Made by a program: the position numbers and the translations under genes. 64,000 bases of DNA from Hymenobacter lapidiphilus (GTDB lineage: Bacteria; Bacteroidota; Bacteroidia; Cytophagales; Hymenobacteraceae), in assembly GCF_013377885.1 (NCBI RefSeq), contig NZ_JABKAU010000012.1:1-64000 (forward strand), written 5' to 3'. Position 1 is the stretch's first letter, and each line of letters opens with the position of its first letter. The notes beneath the pieces are model-generated. The model was not told the DNA's origin. It worked only from the letters and a program-made list of their open reading frames with translations, and made no database searches. Positions 1 through 53,523 of this stretch are shown piece by piece.

Positions 1-46
1 CTGGAGAATCTTCGTATCTTCGTGTCTCATCTGTTGTTTCGTTAGT

Positions 47-44757: not shown

Positions 44758-44876
44758 CAAGTGTGGCGATACTAAAGGAGTCCGTGCTGCTACGCATCGT
44801 CGAGGCAGAGCGGATTTTTTTGTTTCCACTACATCACCTGCTAAACCTTCTCTCTTTTTCGCTGGTTAGGGCTACT

Positions 44877-45365
44877 ATGACAACGCTGGGTGCTGTAGCC
44901 GTTACGACGGCTACTTTTTTGGGGATGGAGTTCGTGGCCTGGTTCATGCACCGGTTTGTGCTGCATGGGCCGCTGTGGTTCCTGCACCGCTCACACCACG
45001 TGCGCCATCCGCACCGCTTCGAACGGAACGACTTCTTCTTCCTTTTTTATGGCTCGCTTTCGATGCTGCTCATCATGTCCGGTGCCGAAAGCCACGATTT
45101 TCGGTTTTGGATGGGCGTGGGCATAGCCAGTTACGGTACGCTGTACTTTTTCGTACATGATGTGCTGATTCATGGCCGGCTGCGCTTCTGGCGCAAGTCG
45201 CGCAGTACATATCTGCGGGCCCTGAACATGGCCCATAAGATGCACCACAAAACCACCGGCCGCGACGGCAGCGAAGAGTTTGGTCTGCTGTGGGTGTCGC
45301 CCCGGTATTTCCGGCTGGCGCTGCGCCGGCCTGCGCCTACCCGGGTGCTGAAATCATCCAGGTAG
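44877..45365 (+). CDS. crtZ: Beta-carotene hydroxylase
   Basis: A 162-residue integral membrane di-iron hydroxylase. The eight-histidine pattern is seen in FMHRFVLHGPLWFLHRSHHVRH, FVHDVLIHGR and HKMHHK. CrtZ adds 3-hydroxyl groups to the beta rings of carotene (to zeaxanthin) or of canthaxanthin (to astaxanthin). The ATG at 44877 is used; the upstream frame lacks family similarity. It lies 119 bp after the enoyl-CoA hydratase gene and is followed by a short terminator before the regulatory pair. Confidence 0.92.
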   Translation: MTTLGAVAVTTATFLGMEFVAWFMHRFVLHGPLWFLHRSHHVRHPHRFERNDFFFLFYGSLSMLLIMSGAESHDFRFWMGVGIASYGTLYFFVHDVLIHGRLRFWRKSRSTYLRALNMAHKMHHKTTGRDGSEEFGLLWVSPRYFRLALRRPAPTRVLKSSR

Positions 45366-45518: not shown

Positions 45519-46415
45519 ATGGGTTACTTCTCCATCTCCGACTTAGAGCAGCTTTCGGGCGTTAAGGCGCACACCATTCGGGTGTGGGAGCAGCGCTATG
45601 GCATTCTGCATCCCGCCCGCACTGCCACCAACATCCGCACCTATTGCGAGGATGATTTGCGCCGGCTGTTGAACGTAGCCACGCTTTGCGACCGGGGCTA
45701 CCGTATTTCCAAGGTAGCCAGCCTAAGCGAAGAGGAGCTTTCGACGGCTGTGCTGGCCGGCAACGACGCGGCGCATAACTATTGCCAGCGTGTAAATGGG
45801 CTGCTGGCTGCCATGCTGGCCATGGACGAGTGCCAGCTGGTACACCTGCTCGATCAGGCTATTCAGCAATTGGGCCTCGAAGAAGCTATTCTGCGGGTTG
45901 CATACCCGTTCCTGCAGCGCATCGGAATTATGTGGCAGGCCGGCACCGTGAATCCGGCGCAGGAGCATTTGATCACCAATTTGCTACGCCAGAAAATGCT
46001 GGCCGGCACCGATGCCCTGCCGCCGGTGTCGCCGGCTTCGGCCCGGCGCTGGGTGCTGTTTCTGCCCGAGCGCGAAATGCACGAGCTGGCCCTGCTGTTT
46101 ATGAACTACGTGTTGCGGGCCCGCCGACACCATGTGCTGTATCTGGGCCAGAACCTGCCCGCTGCCGAGCTAGAAGCCGTGTGTGCCAGCTACCAGCCCC
46201 ACGCCGTGCTGACGGTAATGACTGCCGTGCCCGAGCGCGACGAGGTGGGTTACTTCGTGCAGCAACTGCGCACCTATTGCCCCGGCACGGAGCTTTACCT
46301 CTATGGTCCGCTGGCCCAGCTGGATTTTCCGCTGCCGCCTGAAACTACCCGCCTGACCCTAATTACCGACTTTATAGCCTTGGCGGACACTATCGCGGTA
46401 ACGGCTGAGGTGTAG
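45519..46415 (+). CDS. CarH/LitR-like MerR regulator with B12-binding domain
   Basis: A 298-residue regulator. Residues 3-70 are a MerR helix-turn-helix (ISDLEQLSGVKAHTIRVWEQRYG), 80-165 a four-helix bundle and 175-290 a Rossmann cobalamin-binding fold. The W-x9-EH motif of CarH photoreceptors is exact (W139, E149, H150). The lower-ligand His motif appears as E186-x-H188-E-L-A191, with Ala for the usual Gly. The His that follows the Trp in CarH and forms the bis-His state after light is Gln here, so photochemistry could differ. CarH represses carotenoid genes in the dark using adenosylcobalamin. The position between crtZ and crtIB supports this role. Confidence 0.85.
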   Translation: MGYFSISDLEQLSGVKAHTIRVWEQRYGILHPARTATNIRTYCEDDLRRLLNVATLCDRGYRISKVASLSEEELSTAVLAGNDAAHNYCQRVNGLLAAMLAMDECQLVHLLDQAIQQLGLEEAILRVAYPFLQRIGIMWQAGTVNPAQEHLITNLLRQKMLAGTDALPPVSPASARRWVLFLPEREMHELALLFMNYVLRARRHHVLYLGQNLPAAELEAVCASYQPHAVLTVMTAVPERDEVGYFVQQLRTYCPGTELYLYGPLAQLDFPLPPETTRLTLITDFIALADTIAVTAEV

Positions 46416-46637
46416 TGCCCCAAACCGGTATGGCAGCCCCGCCGTACCTCAGTTGGCCAATGATGCCGGCAGCATATGGCCGGGAAAGCACAAGCTGGTA
46501 CCAGCCTAAAACGGGCTTCAGCACCCGATCCAATATTTTACGATGGCAAAAATGGCTCTGGCAGCGCCTGAAGCCTGATGCCGATTGGTTGTGCGAAATA
46601 AATTGAGCTGCTCTCGTACTTTTTGGCGGGCCCTGCG

Positions 46638-46645
46638 TATATTTG
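46638..46645 (+). promoter_or_regulatory. Bacteroidota -7 element for ECF sigma gene
   Basis: TATATTTG lies 32 bp upstream of the sigma-factor ATG and fits TAnnTTTG. The 260-bp gap 46416-46676 has no other feature. Confidence 0.5.
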
Positions 46646-46676
46646 TTTAACATTTGGCCACCAAAAGCTAAACAGC

Positions 46677-47192
46677 ATGACCTCTCTTGAATTCACTGAC
46701 CAGGTACAGAAGATTTCTTACTCGCTGAAGCCGGTGGCGATGAACCTGACCCGCGACGCCGACGACGCTAAAGACCTCGTGCAGGAAACCCTGCTCAAGG
46801 CGATGCTCAATAAGGATAAGTTTAAAACGGGTACCAATCTGAAGGCGTGGTTGTACACCATCATGCGCAACACCTTCATCAACAACTACAACAAAATAAC
46901 CAAGCGTAATAGCAACATCGACAGCACAGAGTACTTTCAGTACTTTAATACCGATGAAAACTACATTACCCACAACGGAGCTAGCTCAGATTTCGTAGTA
47001 ACGGACATCAACGCGGCTATTGCCGGCCTATCGGCCGACTACCGGACGCCGTTCATGATGTACTATATCGGTTACAAGTATCTGGAAATTGCAGAAAAGC
47101 TGCAGATTCCGATTGGAACCGTGAAAAACCGAATCCACATCGCCCGCAAGGAGCTTAAGCAGGCGCTGAAGACATATGCCCCCGGCGTGTAG
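46677..47192 (+). CDS. ECF-type RNA polymerase sigma factor
   Basis: A 171-residue sigma factor with regions 2 and 4 only. Region 2 includes LTRDADDAKDLVQETLLKAM and LKAWLYTIMRNTFIN; region 4 includes GYKYLEIAEKLQIPIGTVKNRIHIARKELK. No anti-sigma gene is adjacent. In many pigmented Cytophagales a sigma factor of this kind sits between a MerR/B12 regulator and crtIB, so a light- or stress-linked role in carotenogenesis is the best guess. It has its own promoter element and a terminator. Confidence 0.9.
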   Translation: MTSLEFTDQVQKISYSLKPVAMNLTRDADDAKDLVQETLLKAMLNKDKFKTGTNLKAWLYTIMRNTFINNYNKITKRNSNIDSTEYFQYFNTDENYITHNGASSDFVVTDINAAIAGLSADYRTPFMMYYIGYKYLEIAEKLQIPIGTVKNRIHIARKELKQALKTYAPGV

Positions 47193-47231
47193 GGAATAGG
47201 GAGAGAGTACAGACCCGCCCCGGGCGTATCA

Positions 47232-47280
47232 CGGGCCGCGGACTACGCAACCAGCTTTGGCTAGCGTAGTTTGCGGCCCG
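47232..47280 (+). terminator. Terminator of ECF sigma gene
   Basis: A long stem (CGGGCCGC and GACTACGC pairing with GCGTAGT and GCGGCCCG) is followed by TTGTCTTGT. It separates the sigma gene from crtI. Confidence 0.65.
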
Positions 47281-47372
47281 TTGTCTTGTCAGGAAACCAA
47301 ACTTCCGGGCCGTCTGACGGTATCTTAGCATAAATAGGCTGGCGAAACCAGCAAAATCCCATATTTGCGTCT

Positions 47373-48854
47373 GTGAGCAAACACATCATAGTTATCGGGG
47401 CCGGCTTTGCAGGCCTGTCGGCGGCTACCTCTCTGGCCCAGCAGGGCTGCCGCGTTACGTTGCTGGAGAAAAACGAGGGCCCTGGTGGCCGGGCCCGGCA
47501 GTTTCAGGCCGAAGGGTTCACCTTCGATATGGGCCCGAGCTGGTACTGGATGCCCGATATTTTCGAGCAGTACTTCGCCAAATTCGGCCGCAAGGTGAGC
47601 GACTACTACGATTTGGTGCGGCTCGATCCTTCGTACCAGGTGATTTTCAAAGGTCCCGAGGCGGTGGATATTCCGGCGGCCATGAGCGAGCTGCGGGCGT
47701 TGTTCGAACGGTTTGAGCCCGGCAGCGGTGCCCGGCTCGATGAGTTTCTGCGGCAGGCGGCCTACAAATACCAGGTGGGCATTGGCAAGTTTGTGCATAT
47801 GCCCGGCCGCTCGCTACTGGAGTTTGCCGACCCGCGCCTGCTGGTGGACGCCGTGCGCCTCGACCTGTTGCAAAGCATGCACAAGCACGTGCGCAAGTTT
47901 TTCAAAGACCCGCGCCTGTTGGAGCTGGTGGAATTCCCGATTCTGTTTCTGGGCGCTACCTCCGAAAACACGCCGGCCCTGTACTCGCTTATGAACTACG
48001 CCGACCTGGCGATGGGCACCTGGTACCCAATGGGCGGCATGCACAAAATTGTGGAGGGTATGGTGGCCCTGGCCCGCGAGCAGGGCGTAGAAATAGAGTA
48101 CAACGCGCCCGTGGAGCAGATTGTGGTGGAAAACGGCCGTACTACCGGCGTGCAGACGGCCGCCGGCTTCCGGCCCGCCGATGCCGTGGTAGCCGGCGCC
48201 GACTACCACCACGCCGAGCAACACCTGCTGGCCCCCGAGTGGCGCACCTACTCGGAGCAGTATTGGGACAAGCGCACGATGGCCCCGTCGTCGTTGCTGT
48301 TTTACGTGGGCGTGAACAAGCGCCTACCCAACCTGCGCCACCACAACCTGTTTTTCGACCAGGACTTCGGCCTGCACGCCGAGGAAATCTATGAGAACCC
48401 GAAGTGGCCCACCCGCCCGCTGTTCTACGTGTCGGCCCCCTCGCAGACTGACCCCTCGGTAGCCCCTGAAGGCAGCGAGAATATTTTCCTGCTGGTGCCG
48501 GTAGCTCCCAACCTGCCCGACCCCGAGGCCACGCGCGAGCATTACTACAACTTCATTATGGAGCGGCTGGAGCGGCATTGCGGCACCAGCATCCGCGACG
48601 CGGTGGTGTACAAGCGCAGCTACGCCCACCAGAATTTCATCGACGATTACCACAGCTACAAGGGTAATGCCTACGGTCTGGCCAACACCCTGCGCCAGAC
48701 GGCCATCCTCAAGCCAAGCCTCAAAAGCAAAAAAGTCAGCAACCTCTACTTCACCGGCCAGCTCACTGTGCCCGGCCCTGGGGTGCCGCCCTCGCTCATC
48801 TCGGGCCAAGTGGTAGCAGGGGAGGTGCTGAAGGAATTAGGCGTTAAGAAGTAG
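47373..48854 (+). CDS. crtI: Phytoene desaturase
   Basis: A 493-residue FAD-dependent CrtI. The dinucleotide-binding start VIGAGFAGLSAATSLAQQG and GGRARQFQAEGFTFDMGPSW are diagnostic, as is the C-terminal bacterial desaturase signature FTGQLTVPGPGVPPSLISGQ. It introduces four double bases into phytoene to give lycopene. The GTG start opens directly on the FAD motif. crtB follows about 115 bp downstream on the same strand. Confidence 0.93.
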   Translation: MSKHIIVIGAGFAGLSAATSLAQQGCRVTLLEKNEGPGGRARQFQAEGFTFDMGPSWYWMPDIFEQYFAKFGRKVSDYYDLVRLDPSYQVIFKGPEAVDIPAAMSELRALFERFEPGSGARLDEFLRQAAYKYQVGIGKFVHMPGRSLLEFADPRLLVDAVRLDLLQSMHKHVRKFFKDPRLLELVEFPILFLGATSENTPALYSLMNYADLAMGTWYPMGGMHKIVEGMVALAREQGVEIEYNAPVEQIVVENGRTTGVQTAAGFRPADAVVAGADYHHAEQHLLAPEWRTYSEQYWDKRTMAPSSLLFYVGVNKRLPNLRHHNLFFDQDFGLHAEEIYENPKWPTRPLFYVSAPSQTDPSVAPEGSENIFLLVPVAPNLPDPEATREHYYNFIMERLERHCGTSIRDAVVYKRSYAHQNFIDDYHSYKGNAYGLANTLRQTAILKPSLKSKKVSNLYFTGQLTVPGPGVPPSLISGQVVAGEVLKELGVKK

Positions 48855-48970
48855 CTGGTTTAAGCGCCTGCCAGAAAATTTGAAATATGGATTGAGGATG
48901 CTGAATGAGCCGTTTTGCTAAGCGAGCGACATTCGAAATTCGAAATTCAAAACGCATAACTCGAATACAT

Positions 48971-49813
48971 TTGGACCACGTTGCCCTTTTCACTGAAACC
49001 AGCCGGGCGTGCAGCAAGCTGATTACCCAGCGCTACAGCACGTCTTTCACGCTTGGCATCCGCACGCTCGATAAGCGGTTTCACCTGCCGGTGTATTCGG
49101 TGTATGGCTTCGTGCGCTGGGCCGACGAAATCGTGGACACCTTCCACGAGCACGACAAGGCCGCGCTGTTTGCCGATTTTGAGCGCCAGACCTATGAGGC
49201 CCTCGACAAGCGCATCAGCCTGAACCCGGTCCTGCACGCTTTCCAGGATGTTGTACACCAGTATGGTATCGACCGGGAGTTTATTGCGGCCTTCCTCTAT
49301 AGTATGGAGATGGACCTCGATGACCGTAGCTACGACCAGTCGCTGTACAGCAAATACATCTATGGCTCGGCCGAGGTAGTAGGGCTTATGTGCCTGCGTA
49401 TCTTCTGCGAAGGCAATGAGGCAGAGTTCGAGCGGCTGCGTGAGCCGGCCCGGCGGTTGGGTTCGGCCTTCCAGAAAATCAACTTTCTGCGCGACATCCG
49501 CTCCGACTACGAAGAGCGGGGACGGGTATATTTTCCGGGGGTGCAGTACGAACAGTTCACCGATGCGGTGAAGCGCGACATTGAGGACGATATCCGGGCC
49601 GATTTTGAGGCCGGTTACGCGGGCATCGTGCAGTTGCCGCAGGCGGCCCGGCTGGGGGTTTACCTGGCGTATGTATACTATCTGAAGCTGTTTGACAAAA
49701 TCCGGCGGCTGCCGGCGGCCCACATTCAGCAGCAGCGGGTGCGGGTACCTACCAACACCAAGCTGCTGCTGCTGATGGGCTCGTGGCTACGTTACCGGAT
49801 GGCTAAAATATAG
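48971..49813 (+). CDS. crtB: Phytoene synthase
   Basis: A 280-residue squalene/phytoene synthase joining two geranylgeranyl diphosphates. The two Asp-rich motifs are VRWADEIVDTF and FLRDIRSDYEERGRVYFP. The TTG at 48971 is chosen because similarity begins at DHVALFTETSRACSKLI; an ATG at 48905 would add 22 residues encoded by an AT-rich, internally repetitive stretch. With crtI it forms the core of the carotenoid operon. Confidence 0.9.
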   Translation: MDHVALFTETSRACSKLITQRYSTSFTLGIRTLDKRFHLPVYSVYGFVRWADEIVDTFHEHDKAALFADFERQTYEALDKRISLNPVLHAFQDVVHQYGIDREFIAAFLYSMEMDLDDRSYDQSLYSKYIYGSAEVVGLMCLRIFCEGNEAEFERLREPARRLGSAFQKINFLRDIRSDYEERGRVYFPGVQYEQFTDAVKRDIEDDIRADFEAGYAGIVQLPQAARLGVYLAYVYYLKLFDKIRRLPAAHIQQQRVRVPTNTKLLLLMGSWLRYRMAKI

Positions 49814-51885: not shown

Positions 51886-52734
51886 ATGCCGCACCACTTA
51901 AGCGTTCGAATCGACCCCAACTCCGGCTTTTGCTTTGGCGTTATCTATGCCATTCAGATGGCCGAAGACCTGCTCGATGAGCAGGGCTACCTGTATTGCC
52001 TGGGCGATATTGTGCACAACGATGAAGAAGTGGAGCGCCTTGAACGTCGGGGCCTGCGCATCATCGACTACGAGCAGCTGGCTGGCCTGCGCCGCGAGGC
52101 TGTACTTATCCGGGCACACGGCGAGCCACCCAGCACCTACCAGATGGCTATGGAGAACGAGCTGACGCTCGTGGATGCCTCGTGTCCGGTGGTACTTAAA
52201 CTGCAGAACCGCATTAAAACCAGCTACGACAAGCAGGACCAGATCTTTATATACGGCAAGCACGGGCACGCCGAGGTGCGTGGCCTGCTGGGCCAGACCA
52301 GCGGAAATGCCGTGGTGTTCGAAAGTCTGGAAGAGTTGCTGGGCCACGAGCTGCCGCCCAGCCTCACGCTCTACAGCCAGACCACTAAGAGCACCGACTC
52401 GTTTTACCGCATCAAAAACGAGCTGACTGAGCGCGGCTATGAGGTAAATGCCAACGACACCATCTGCCGGCAGGTAAGCAACCGCGACAAGGATCTGCGC
52501 CGCTTTGCCGCTCAATACGACCAAGTAGTATTCGTATCGGGGACCAAAAGCTCCAACGGCAAGGTGCTGTACCAAGTCTGCAAGGATACCAACCCAGCCA
52601 CGCACTTCATCTCCAAGCTCGACGACCTCGATTACGGCTGGTTTATGCCGGGCCAGAGTGTGGGCATCTGCGGGGCTACCAGCACCCCCATGTGGCAGAT
52701 GGAGCAGATTCGCGACGCGCTGCTGGCGCTGTAA
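51886..52734 (+). CDS. ispH: 4-hydroxy-3-methylbut-2-enyl diphosphate reductase
   Basis: A 282-residue Fe-S enzyme, last step of the MEP pathway, giving IPP and DMAPP. The three cluster cysteines lie in SGFCFGV, VDASCPVV and ICGATSTP. The catalytic region IRAHGEPPSTYQM and the active-site His (YGKHGHAEVRGLLG) are present. Placement between crtIB and crtW makes sense because it supplies the C5 units for carotenoids. Confidence 0.93.
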   Translation: MPHHLSVRIDPNSGFCFGVIYAIQMAEDLLDEQGYLYCLGDIVHNDEEVERLERRGLRIIDYEQLAGLRREAVLIRAHGEPPSTYQMAMENELTLVDASCPVVLKLQNRIKTSYDKQDQIFIYGKHGHAEVRGLLGQTSGNAVVFESLEELLGHELPPSLTLYSQTTKSTDSFYRIKNELTERGYEVNANDTICRQVSNRDKDLRRFAAQYDQVVFVSGTKSSNGKVLYQVCKDTNPATHFISKLDDLDYGWFMPGQSVGICGATSTPMWQMEQIRDALLAL

Positions 52735-52758: not shown

Positions 52759-53523
52759 ATGAGTGAACTTAGCTATCCTGTTGCTGAAAACACGACTGCC
52801 GCATTGCCGCCGGCCCGGCCAGGCCGGGTGCGGCCGGCGCCATTAGAAGGGCGGGGCGTAGTGGCGGCGGGACTGGTGCTGGTCTGTTGGGGCGGGCTGC
52901 TTACGTTTTTGCTGGCTTTCTTCCAGCCCGACTGGCGCACGCCCTGGCCTTACTTGCTGGCGCTGCTGCAAACCCATCTGTATACTGGCCTTTTTATTAC
53001 GGCCCACGATGCCATGCACGGAGTGGTAAGCTCCAACAAGCGCCTCAACAATACCATTGGCACGCTGGCCGCCGGGCTTTTCGCGTTCAACTGGTTTCCG
53101 GGCATGCTGGCCAAACACCACGCCCACCACCGCCACGTAGCCACCGAGCACGACCCCGACTTCCACAACGGCCGCCACCCGGGCTTCCTGCCCTGGTTTG
53201 TGCGCTTTGCCTGGAACTACGTAACCGTGTGGCAGGTGCTGCTGATGGCGGCCACCTACAATGTGCTCAAGCTGTTCTTCCCGCAGGCTAATGTTATTGC
53301 CTTCTGGATGCTGCCGGCCGTGTTGGGTACTTTTCAACTGTTTTATTTCGGTACCTACCTGCCGCACCGGGGCGAGCATGAAGCCGACAATGCGCACAAA
53401 TCGCGCAGCCAGTTTCGCCACCATGCTTGGGCCTTTATAAGCTGCTACTTCTTCGGCTACCACTACGAGCACCACGACCAGCCCTACCTGCCTTGGTGGC
53501 GGCTATGGAAGGCAAAGGGGTAG
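52759..53523 (+). CDS. crtW: Beta-carotene ketolase
   Basis: A 254-residue membrane di-iron enzyme. FITAHDAMHG, KHHAHHRHVATEHDPDFH, YFGTYLPHRGEHE and FGYHYEHHDQPYLPWWRLW are the CrtW histidine clusters, distinct from general fatty-acid desaturases. It introduces 4-keto groups into beta rings. With crtZ this predicts ketolated xanthophylls such as astaxanthin or adonixanthin, provided a lycopene cyclase exists elsewhere. It starts 24 bp after ispH. Confidence 0.9.
   Translation: MSELSYPVAENTTAALPPARPGRVRPAPLEGRGVVAAGLVLVCWGGLLTFLLAFFQPDWRTPWPYLLALLQTHLYTGLFITAHDAMHGVVSSNKRLNNTIGTLAAGLFAFNWFPGMLAKHHAHHRHVATEHDPDFHNGRHPGFLPWFVRFAWNYVTVWQVLLMAATYNVLKLFFPQANVIAFWMLPAVLGTFQLFYFGTYLPHRGEHEADNAHKSRSQFRHHAWAFISCYFFGYHYEHHDQPYLPWWRLWKAKG

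Follow-up and report, generated by a model that had tools for sequence, protein, structure and literature searches.

The 64,000-nucleotide window of Hymenobacter lapidiphilus analyzed here (contig NZ_JABKAU010000012.1, to which all coordinates refer) encodes a CarH-like MerR regulator and an adjacent extracytoplasmic function (ECF) sigma factor, followed by the carotenoid genes crtI and crtB, and comparison with related loci points to a real and conserved B12-type repressor-operator-sigma module. It is proposed, with a probability of roughly 60%, that the MerR protein is an adenosylcobalamin (AdoCbl)-bound dark repressor of the sigma gene and that its release by light raises crt expression. 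Regulator and sigma gene are connected by a conserved inverted repeat, TGTTTA-N18/19-TAAACA, which is new here; from comparative support, its copy at 46644-46674 is strongly inferred to be an operator owned by the MerR protein. Among the titles and abstract beginnings listed for open papers on CarH, LitR and MerR-crt-sigma combinations, none gives an account of this operator or its regulon. The two open reading frames (ORFs) that an initial annotation had placed at 45519-47192 proved to be real, and crtI-crtB come after them. The sigma gene is taken to start at the ATG at 46677; a longer, TTG-started frame is also among the ORFs. The module consists of the following elements.

45519..46415, + strand: CarH-like MerR regulator, 298 aa (Pfam MerR_1 2.7e-15, B12-binding_2 9.7e-11), with a winged-helix domain at residues ~1-69, a four-helix cap at 93-160 (W139, Q140, E149, H150) and a Rossmann B12-type domain at ~177-297 (H188)
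46638..46645, + strand: promoter element TATATTTG, which fits TAnnTTTG, before the sigma gene
46644..46674, no strand: proposed operator TGTTTA-N19-TAAACA, an inverted repeat ending 2 bases 5' of the sigma start codon
46677..47192, + strand: ECF sigma factor, 171 aa (Sigma70_r2, Sigma70_r4_2)
47193..47372, + strand: sigma-crtI gap, candidate crtI promoter region, with CATnTTYG[CT]G in 25/68 related loci
47373..48854, + strand: crtI, phytoene desaturase (NCBIfam CrtID, 759 bits, cut-off 640)
48905..49813, + strand: crtB, phytoene synthase (SQS_PSY)

Across relatives the promoter of the sigma gene is near-fixed and reads TAnnTTTG, TGTTTA and then TAAACA 18 or 19 bases on. Among 99 loci in which merR is followed by sigma, the strict form of the repeat lies within 150 bases 5' of sigma in 82 and the loose form in all 99, compared with background rates per 160 bases of the same loci of 0.0015 for the strict form and 0.0065 for the loose one. 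The strict repeat precedes merR in 9/9 merR-crt loci that have no sigma gene, and a repeat is found in 1/36 loci with no crt genes in line. TAnnTTTG, which we take to be the Bacteroidota promoter consensus, occurs within ~70 bases before sigma in 87/99 sigma-bearing clusters; in the window, no −33 element was recognized by eye at the usual distance in the sigma promoter. Repeats of the sigma type are also present in Cyclobacteriaceae, Chitinophagaceae, Saprospiraceae, Flavobacteriales, one Bacteroidales bin and one bin titled Williamsia, which is perhaps misbinned, while those of the merR type occur in Sphingobacteriaceae, Crocinitomicaceae and Chitinophagales.

An even draw across the phylum provides the strongest association. 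Using crtI at E<=1e-120, 73/296 Bacteroidota genomes were selected, giving 70 loci once the window's own and two Hymenobacter loci were excluded, and MerR was counted from 200 bits, such that L208 with its 59-bit MerR counts as being without. A CarH-like MerR of >200 bits accompanies crtI in 44/70 loci, and an intermediate form of the repeat lies 5' of merR, sigma or crtI in 41/44 loci with MerR nearby versus 1/26 without (Fisher p=1.2e-14; reversed control pattern 0). The search windows were extended 15 bases past the start codon once overlap by the right arm had been noticed, and before this extension the repeat was counted in 32/44. The spacing is sharply defined, with a gap of 18 in 52 cases, 19 in 10 and any other gap from 8 to 39 in at most 2. 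In many Bacteroidota, the MerR protein very probably acts through this repeat on the adjacent genes for orange protective pigments. Around unlinked MerR genes, four of 12 loci carry the repeat beside MerR (L251, L253, L254 and L257); in L251 (G443) it is 155 bp upstream of the unlinked MerR, which adjoins an Fe/Mn superoxide dismutase gene.

Known CarH proteins bind TnnACA half-sites arranged as tandem 11-bp repeats, nnnnTnnACAn, according to the excerpts available (PMC9304148). The operator arm TAAACA fits this half-site, and a tandem TnnACA pair 11 bp apart is found in only 2/99 sigma promoters. A tandem CarH-type operator was considered for the window and rejected, because its TnnACA pair, 22 bp apart, is not conserved and the inverted repeat is. 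A strict-arm search of the whole window genome returned three repeats with a gap of 14-24 (reversed control 2), and the one on the sigma promoter is the sole repeat with the right gap before a gene. The other two lie between the 3' ends of genes, and a direct Hymenobacter regulon beyond sigma was rejected on the basis of these strict-arm sites.

Losses within Hymenobacter provide natural comparisons. A CarH-like MerR is missing from five genomes and unlinked in a sixth (G020); the sigma-crtI-crtB order is intact in 6/6 of them, neither the repeat nor TAnnTTTG is found within 150 bases in any of the six (0/6), and the left arm TGTTTA is still there in 4/6. In this comparison, a 75-base window likewise misses the repeat in two loci where MerR is present (L174 and L175), which have the loose form only within 150 bases. 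These six cases probably share one loss and count as one or two events. Three of the MerR-less genomes (L271-L273, from G056, G057 and G086) contain a perfect intergenic 30-bp palindrome, TGTTTACACTTGTAATTACAAGTGTAAACA (with one variant), which is probably another regulator's site fitting the strict pattern by chance. In a second type of loss, a Hymenobacter subclade of 14 tree rows (L041, L043, L044, L142-L150, L152 and L153) has a crt-linked MerR with H142R in 14/14 and H177Q in 9/14 (Thermus numbering), while the Trp and synteny are kept. The repeat persists there in loose form with the right arm TTCTACA or TTCAACA, and three of these genomes (G066, G087 and G106) have a separate copy with intact ligands as well (L045, L151 and L042). 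By analogy, this subclade is a likely replay of the transition from CarH to CarA. The tree leaves out L124, L137 and L167 (broken reading frame). In L167 (G091), the MerR frame in the crt cluster looks broken, the promoter is of the type of the ligand-losing subclade, and matches to sigma and the crt genes persist.

Other MerR homologs were seen outside crt clusters. A Saprospiraceae-type clade (L078, L081, L091, L093, L094 and L100) has no crt genes in line, Asn or Ser for His142 and Gln for His177, and its members probably cannot bind AdoCbl in the manner of CarH. The window genome has a second MerR copy (52% identity to that of the window), and in Hymenobacter such second copies (L051:10355-13124, L045:7055-8788, L063:6726-7106) lie near one or two proteins of 126-142 aa, with a 233-aa protein also present in L051 and L045 (matching CarboxypepD_reg in L045); no operator repeat was found at the promoter of the second copy in these three loci.

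The ligand motifs reported for the MerR protein in the initial annotation were borne out by alignment to CarH, namely an exact W-x9-EH (W139, E149 and H150), a lower-ligand ExHxxA (E186-M-H188-E-L-A191) and Gln140 after the Trp at the position of His132 in Thermus thermophilus CarH. Chance does not account for this pattern, as W139, E149, H150 and H188 are invariant across a 33-sequence alignment. The protein is 94-96% identical to the MerR of Hymenobacter sp. ISL-91, Hymenobacter sp. CCM 8763 and H. terrestris. Its closest solved structures are Thermus CarH chains, which are also the top profile match (6.5e-30), and as far as position ~268 the profile also matches the Rossmann half of corrinoid proteins, methionine synthase among them. 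A search of plasmids for other CarH proteins returned Thermus only, at 1e-20. The AlphaFold2 (AF2) model has a predicted local distance difference test (pLDDT) score of 91.2, and full-length CarH chains occupy Foldseek ranks 1-12 (best E 2.5e-14), such that the CarH fold is recovered over the full length. The template modeling (TM) score by query is only 0.48-0.59, with a root mean square deviation of 9-15 versus full-length CarH, which shows that the domains are differently placed, and the B12 domains alone give a TM score by target of ~0.8; later Foldseek matches in the PDB include CtMerR (8jbs) and SasPcob (8j2x). The genome encodes one ATP:cob(I)alamin adenosyltransferase (PF01923) and has two cobalamin riboswitches, hence AdoCbl can be made. 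A third B12-cap protein, within a 1315-residue frame, is inferred to be MetH. Together with the conserved ligands and the predicted fold, the adenosyltransferase and the riboswitches support the earlier suggestion that AdoCbl binding by the window MerR is plausible.

The protein nevertheless departs from CarH in the strict sense. It scores 95.5 bits against the NCBIfam CarH equivalog NF052513, which has a cut-off of 400. Of the SignatureFinder motifs for light-responsive cobalamin domains it has GxxW, EH and GxxxP, with GxxH reading RxxH, a position at which Gly is found in 34/68 clustered homologs. At Thermus CarH positions 176, 201, 160 and 192, which we take to be interface residues, the window has M, N, P and R. 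The classic B12 motif, given as D/ExHx2G/P-x41-SxT/V-x22-27-GG in the available part of PMC9304148, is incomplete in the alignment, which has Ala191 for Gly, TxM for SxT/V and Gly263-Pro for GG, with ligand His188 and Glu186 retained. Since it fails these tests of family score and full Rossmann motif, and has neither His132 nor tandem repeats, the protein is a variant rather than a strict CarH.

The Gln at position 132 was assessed in two samples. Among 144 nonredundant homologs (near-identical loci left out, and biased toward Hymenobacter and toward proteins retrieved for their resemblance to the query), Trp131 is present in 142, Glu141 in 140, His142 in 120 and His177 in 124, with all four in 117, and the residues at position 132 include Gln (76), Leu (32), Lys (13) and His (2). 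At 70% clustering, all four ligand residues are retained in 59/68. In the even draw, 43 of the 44 MerR proteins have Trp/Glu/His/His, and position 132 is Gln in 36 and His in none, which disposes of Gln140 as a strain oddity and, by these alignments, makes Gln the norm of the phylum Bacteroidota. The initial annotation had suggested that Gln may alter the light-driven state. This stands insofar as Gln excludes ligation by two His residues of the Thermus type, where His132 is reported to become the upper ligand after light (PMC10442372), and it is not evidence against light sensing. According to the excerpts available, the CtMerR tetramer, with Arg at this position, dissociates to monomers in light (PMC11796333), and SasPcob, with Gln, goes from dimer to monomer in light if bilin-bound, is a monomer in dark and light without bilin, and ends with water or hydroxide on cobalt after light (PMC11796333; PMC10979010). 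Because CtMerR and bilin-bound SasPcob respond to light without His132, Gln is no argument against light sensing.

The genes behind the repeat outside crt clusters bear on the nature of the signal. In L074, the repeat precedes a PTPS-FolE-SDR-flavin reductase operon, and MerR comes after two genes of the photolyase kind, a photolyase/cryptochrome gene (PF00875, PF03441) and a DPRP photolyase-related one. A repeat before PTPS-FolE is present in 4/10 Pedobacter-type loci (L074, L077, L079 and L127), all four with MerR beside photolyase genes; both the repeat at that place and the PTPS-FolE motifs are missing from L071, L088, L101 and L126, and L076 and L089 are truncated (Pfam covered L074 alone). 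Strict repeats were listed in all 10 MerR-bearing genomes of the scanned set outside one family (f7), yielding 27 sites in 9/10 genomes (none in G380; reversed control 8, of which 5 in G345). Twelve of these are in crt clusters, and the other 15 comprise 10 intergenic sites and 5 inside ORFs. The intergenic sites include PTPS-FolE-SDR twice (L298 and L300), fasciclin-domain genes twice (L299 and L306) and, in L297, a bacteriorhodopsin-like gene (PF01036 5.9e-42) with a lycopene cyclase gene (PF05834 1.4e-46), where Pfam was run on L297, L298, L299 and L306. In L297:2622-4666 (G388, one genome only), the operator is 98 bp 5' of the bacteriorhodopsin-like gene, which is followed by the lycopene cyclase gene, an arrangement hinting at control of a light-driven pump by a B12 photoreceptor.

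In three MerR-less genomes, 11/16 sites were read, of which 10 are inside ORFs and 1 is intergenic, so that the intergenic share is 10/15 in MerR-bearing versus 1/11 in MerR-less genomes (p=0.005). Adding the three intergenic sites of MerR-less Hymenobacter, which are all one longer, different palindrome, makes this 10/15 versus 4/14 (p=0.07), and as that excess is non-significant the weight rests on the identity of the targets. In Pseudomonas putida, class II LitR is reported to mediate the induction by light of a set of photolyase, folE and cryptochrome genes (PMC9758184, available part). By association, the target list of photolyase, pterin and rhodopsin genes speaks for light rather than B12 supply as what is sensed. 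Six Flavobacterium-type genomes (g17) have the repeat 48 times versus 34 for the reversed control, and because of this high background the six family f7 sites that were fetched are hand-picked leads outside the counts. Among these, operator-like repeats lie by a gene resembling those of TetR regulators and an ABC1-family kinase gene (by Pfam, L293) in L293, L294 and L296. Fasciclin-domain genes recur 3' of the operator (L299, L306 and L295), and a fasciclin gene is also beside a B12-type MerR in L137, a plasmid of the betaproteobacterium Eleftheria terrae.

In the proposed mechanism, AdoCbl would be held between Trp139/Glu149/His150 and the lower ligand His188, and an AdoCbl-MerR oligomer on the repeat at 46644-46674, over the sigma promoter, would keep the sigma gene off in the dark. 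Light would cleave the Co-C bond, the adenosyl group would leave and, with Gln at residue 140, the cobalt would be ligated by water or hydroxide rather than by two His residues as MerR releases the DNA. Sigma would then be made and expression of crtI-crtB, and perhaps of other photoprotection genes, would go up. AdoCbl binding, repression and light release by MerR are assigned here by homology. Extended to the phylum, the same reasoning would give a B12-gated light regulon with a Gln-type CarH, no bis-His state and one inverted-repeat operator, whose targets depend on lineage and would comprise the ECF sigma gene, merR-crtIB, a photolyase-side pterin/folE operon and rhodopsin-lycopene cyclase; this wider picture is tentative and falls a little short of even odds.

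Several observations count against the dark-repressor reading or its extension. The 99 sigma loci are non-independent, since a single family supplies no fewer than 75 of them (72 family genomes and 3 named). The operator is an inverted repeat with a gap of 18/19 and not a set of tandem 11-bp repeats, three even-draw loci with MerR nearby (L186, L243 and L250) have no repeat, and the window genome's own photolyase locus has none. In addition, 13/14 genomes in which MerR is only unlinked have no repeat at crt (weak matches in 4/14), so that L206, the sole even-draw repeat without a linked MerR and with MerR elsewhere in its genome, proves little. To these are added the p=0.07 above, the degenerate Rossmann half (ExHxxA, TxM, GP), for which the Pfam B12-binding model gives E=0.021 only, and the changed interface residues, by which the oligomer must differ from that of Thermus CarH. 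Finally, T. thermophilus CarH H132A is reported to be mostly tetrameric in light, where an earlier study cited in the same source had reported disassembly (PMC10442372, available part).

The H132A result would also suit a module with the same repressor and operator in which the signal is AdoCbl supply rather than light and Gln140 blunts the light switch. Such a module would account for the retention of the ligand residues when His132 is absent in 44/44 of the even draw, yet it is unlikely, given that the repeat also stands before the photolyase-linked pterin operon and rhodopsin-lycopene cyclase, and that light responses are reported for CtMerR, which has Arg, and for bilin-bound SasPcob, which has Gln (PMC11796333; PMC10979010). 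Slightly less likely still is a CarA-like regulator that has kept only the fold and responds, independently of B12, to another protein or redox, for example. The degenerate Rossmann motif speaks for it, as does the H142R/H177Q subclade, whose retention of the loose repeat makes repression without B12 seem evolvable, but the window MerR and 117/144 homologs retain all four ligand residues, and GxxW, EH and GxxxP are retained in the window MerR as well.

At promoters activated by MerR-type proteins, the operator overlaps the promoter element, and the MerR protein might instead be a classical activator that twists the sigma promoter. The repeat overlaps or holds TAnnTTTG in 83/99 sigma clusters, and the MerR-less Hymenobacter have lost TAnnTTTG together with the repeat. 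The window repeat, however, starts on TAnnTTTG and extends downstream to the start codon, which is a blocking position, and B12-type relatives are reported to repress (PMC8156234; PMC9758184, available parts), which makes activation the most improbable of these alternatives.

The dark-repressor proposal is weakest in its last step, the action of sigma on crtI. The sigma factor itself is well conserved, with one match in each of 196/197 family genomes (none in one) and 94-100% identity in the 29 nearest other genomes versus 70-96% for MerR. No anti-sigma gene adjoins sigma, whose neighbors are MerR and crtI, and transcription is therefore the natural control point of sigma. The two-step switch on crtIB suggested in the initial annotation gains support at its first step from the operator on the sigma promoter; for the second step, the search for a sigma target motif before crtI established none, CATnTTYG[CT]G being common to 25/68 loci only. 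A single step, in which MerR controls a co-transcribed sig-crtI-crtB unit and sigma serves other genes, is possible, if on the doubtful side. Twenty loci have a more distant sigma, whose gene ends ~2-96 bp before crtI (<=20 bp in 14/20), a distance that allows simple co-transcription, and sigma-less clusters place the repeat directly before merR-crtI-crtB. Against a single step, 165 bp or more separate sigma from crtI in the 68 loci whose sigma is of the Hymenobacter type, and in L253 the MerR-repeat-sigma set is apart from crtIB, which has no repeat in that genome.

Among known systems, the module appears to work in the manner of CarH, with a layout resembling that of LitR-LitS. Thermus thermophilus CarH shares the MerR domain, four-helix cap and Rossmann B12 domain, W-x9-EH, the lower His and nearby carotenoid genes, and is the top structural match; it differs in its ~24-28% identity, in having His132 where the window has Gln, in its interface residues and in its tandem 11-bp repeats versus an inverted repeat on a sigma gene. 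In LitR-LitS of Streptomyces, from a different phylum, a B12-type MerR likewise stands beside an ECF sigma factor that serves carotenoid genes. CtMerR of Chloracidobacterium (8jbs/8jbt) and SasPcob (8j2x) are similar as light-responsive cobalamin domains without His132 (PMC11796333), although SasPcob has a bilin domain and, in the excerpts available, no MerR domain is described for it. The CarA/CarH pair of Myxococcus (PMC9304148) includes B12-dependent and ligand-losing paralogs, as in the Hymenobacter subclade, but CarA is reported to have lost the Trp, whereas the subclade keeps it and loses H142 and then H177. Class II LitR (PplR) of Pseudomonas has a light regulon with photolyase, folE and cryptochrome and, unlike the window MerR, is described as having the four-helix half only and working with a LOV protein (PMC9758184). 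MliR of Bizionia was rejected as the same protein, being reported without an effector domain (PMC9478572, available part).

The surroundings of the module agree broadly with the xanthophyll cluster named in the initial annotation, with CrtI, CrtB and IspH matched and a CrtW-like ketolase below its cut-off.

44763..45365, + strand: His-rich small ORF upstream of merR, probable carotenoid hydroxylase, no family match
51886..52734, + strand: ispH (LytB), isoprenoid precursor supply, by family match
52759..53523, + strand: CrtW-like carotenoid ketolase, 225.9 bits, under the NCBIfam cut-off of 350

The His-rich ORF matches no Pfam family up to E=5 and is presumed by us to be CrtZ-like.

A MerR gene in Bacteroidota crt clusters is mentioned without testing in the available parts of two papers (PMC11855829; PMC5887021), and another describes light-induced carotenoids in Chryseobacterium lacus, also of the Bacteroidota, with a regulator called unknown and car/lit genes reported to be lacking (PMC7064467). 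Since it is reported without these genes, C. lacus itself is not explained by this MerR. For many other Bacteroidota crt clusters (44/70 sampled loci), there is now a candidate regulator together with an exact DNA site, and natural comparisons are at hand in genomes where MerR is lost, ligands are lost or sigma is absent. The disputed role of His132 becomes testable on proteins that are naturally without it. Light responses, perhaps that of a rhodopsin among them, may be gated by the supply of B12. If the phylum-wide regulon is real, a single B12 photoreceptor would govern protection from light as well as its harvesting.

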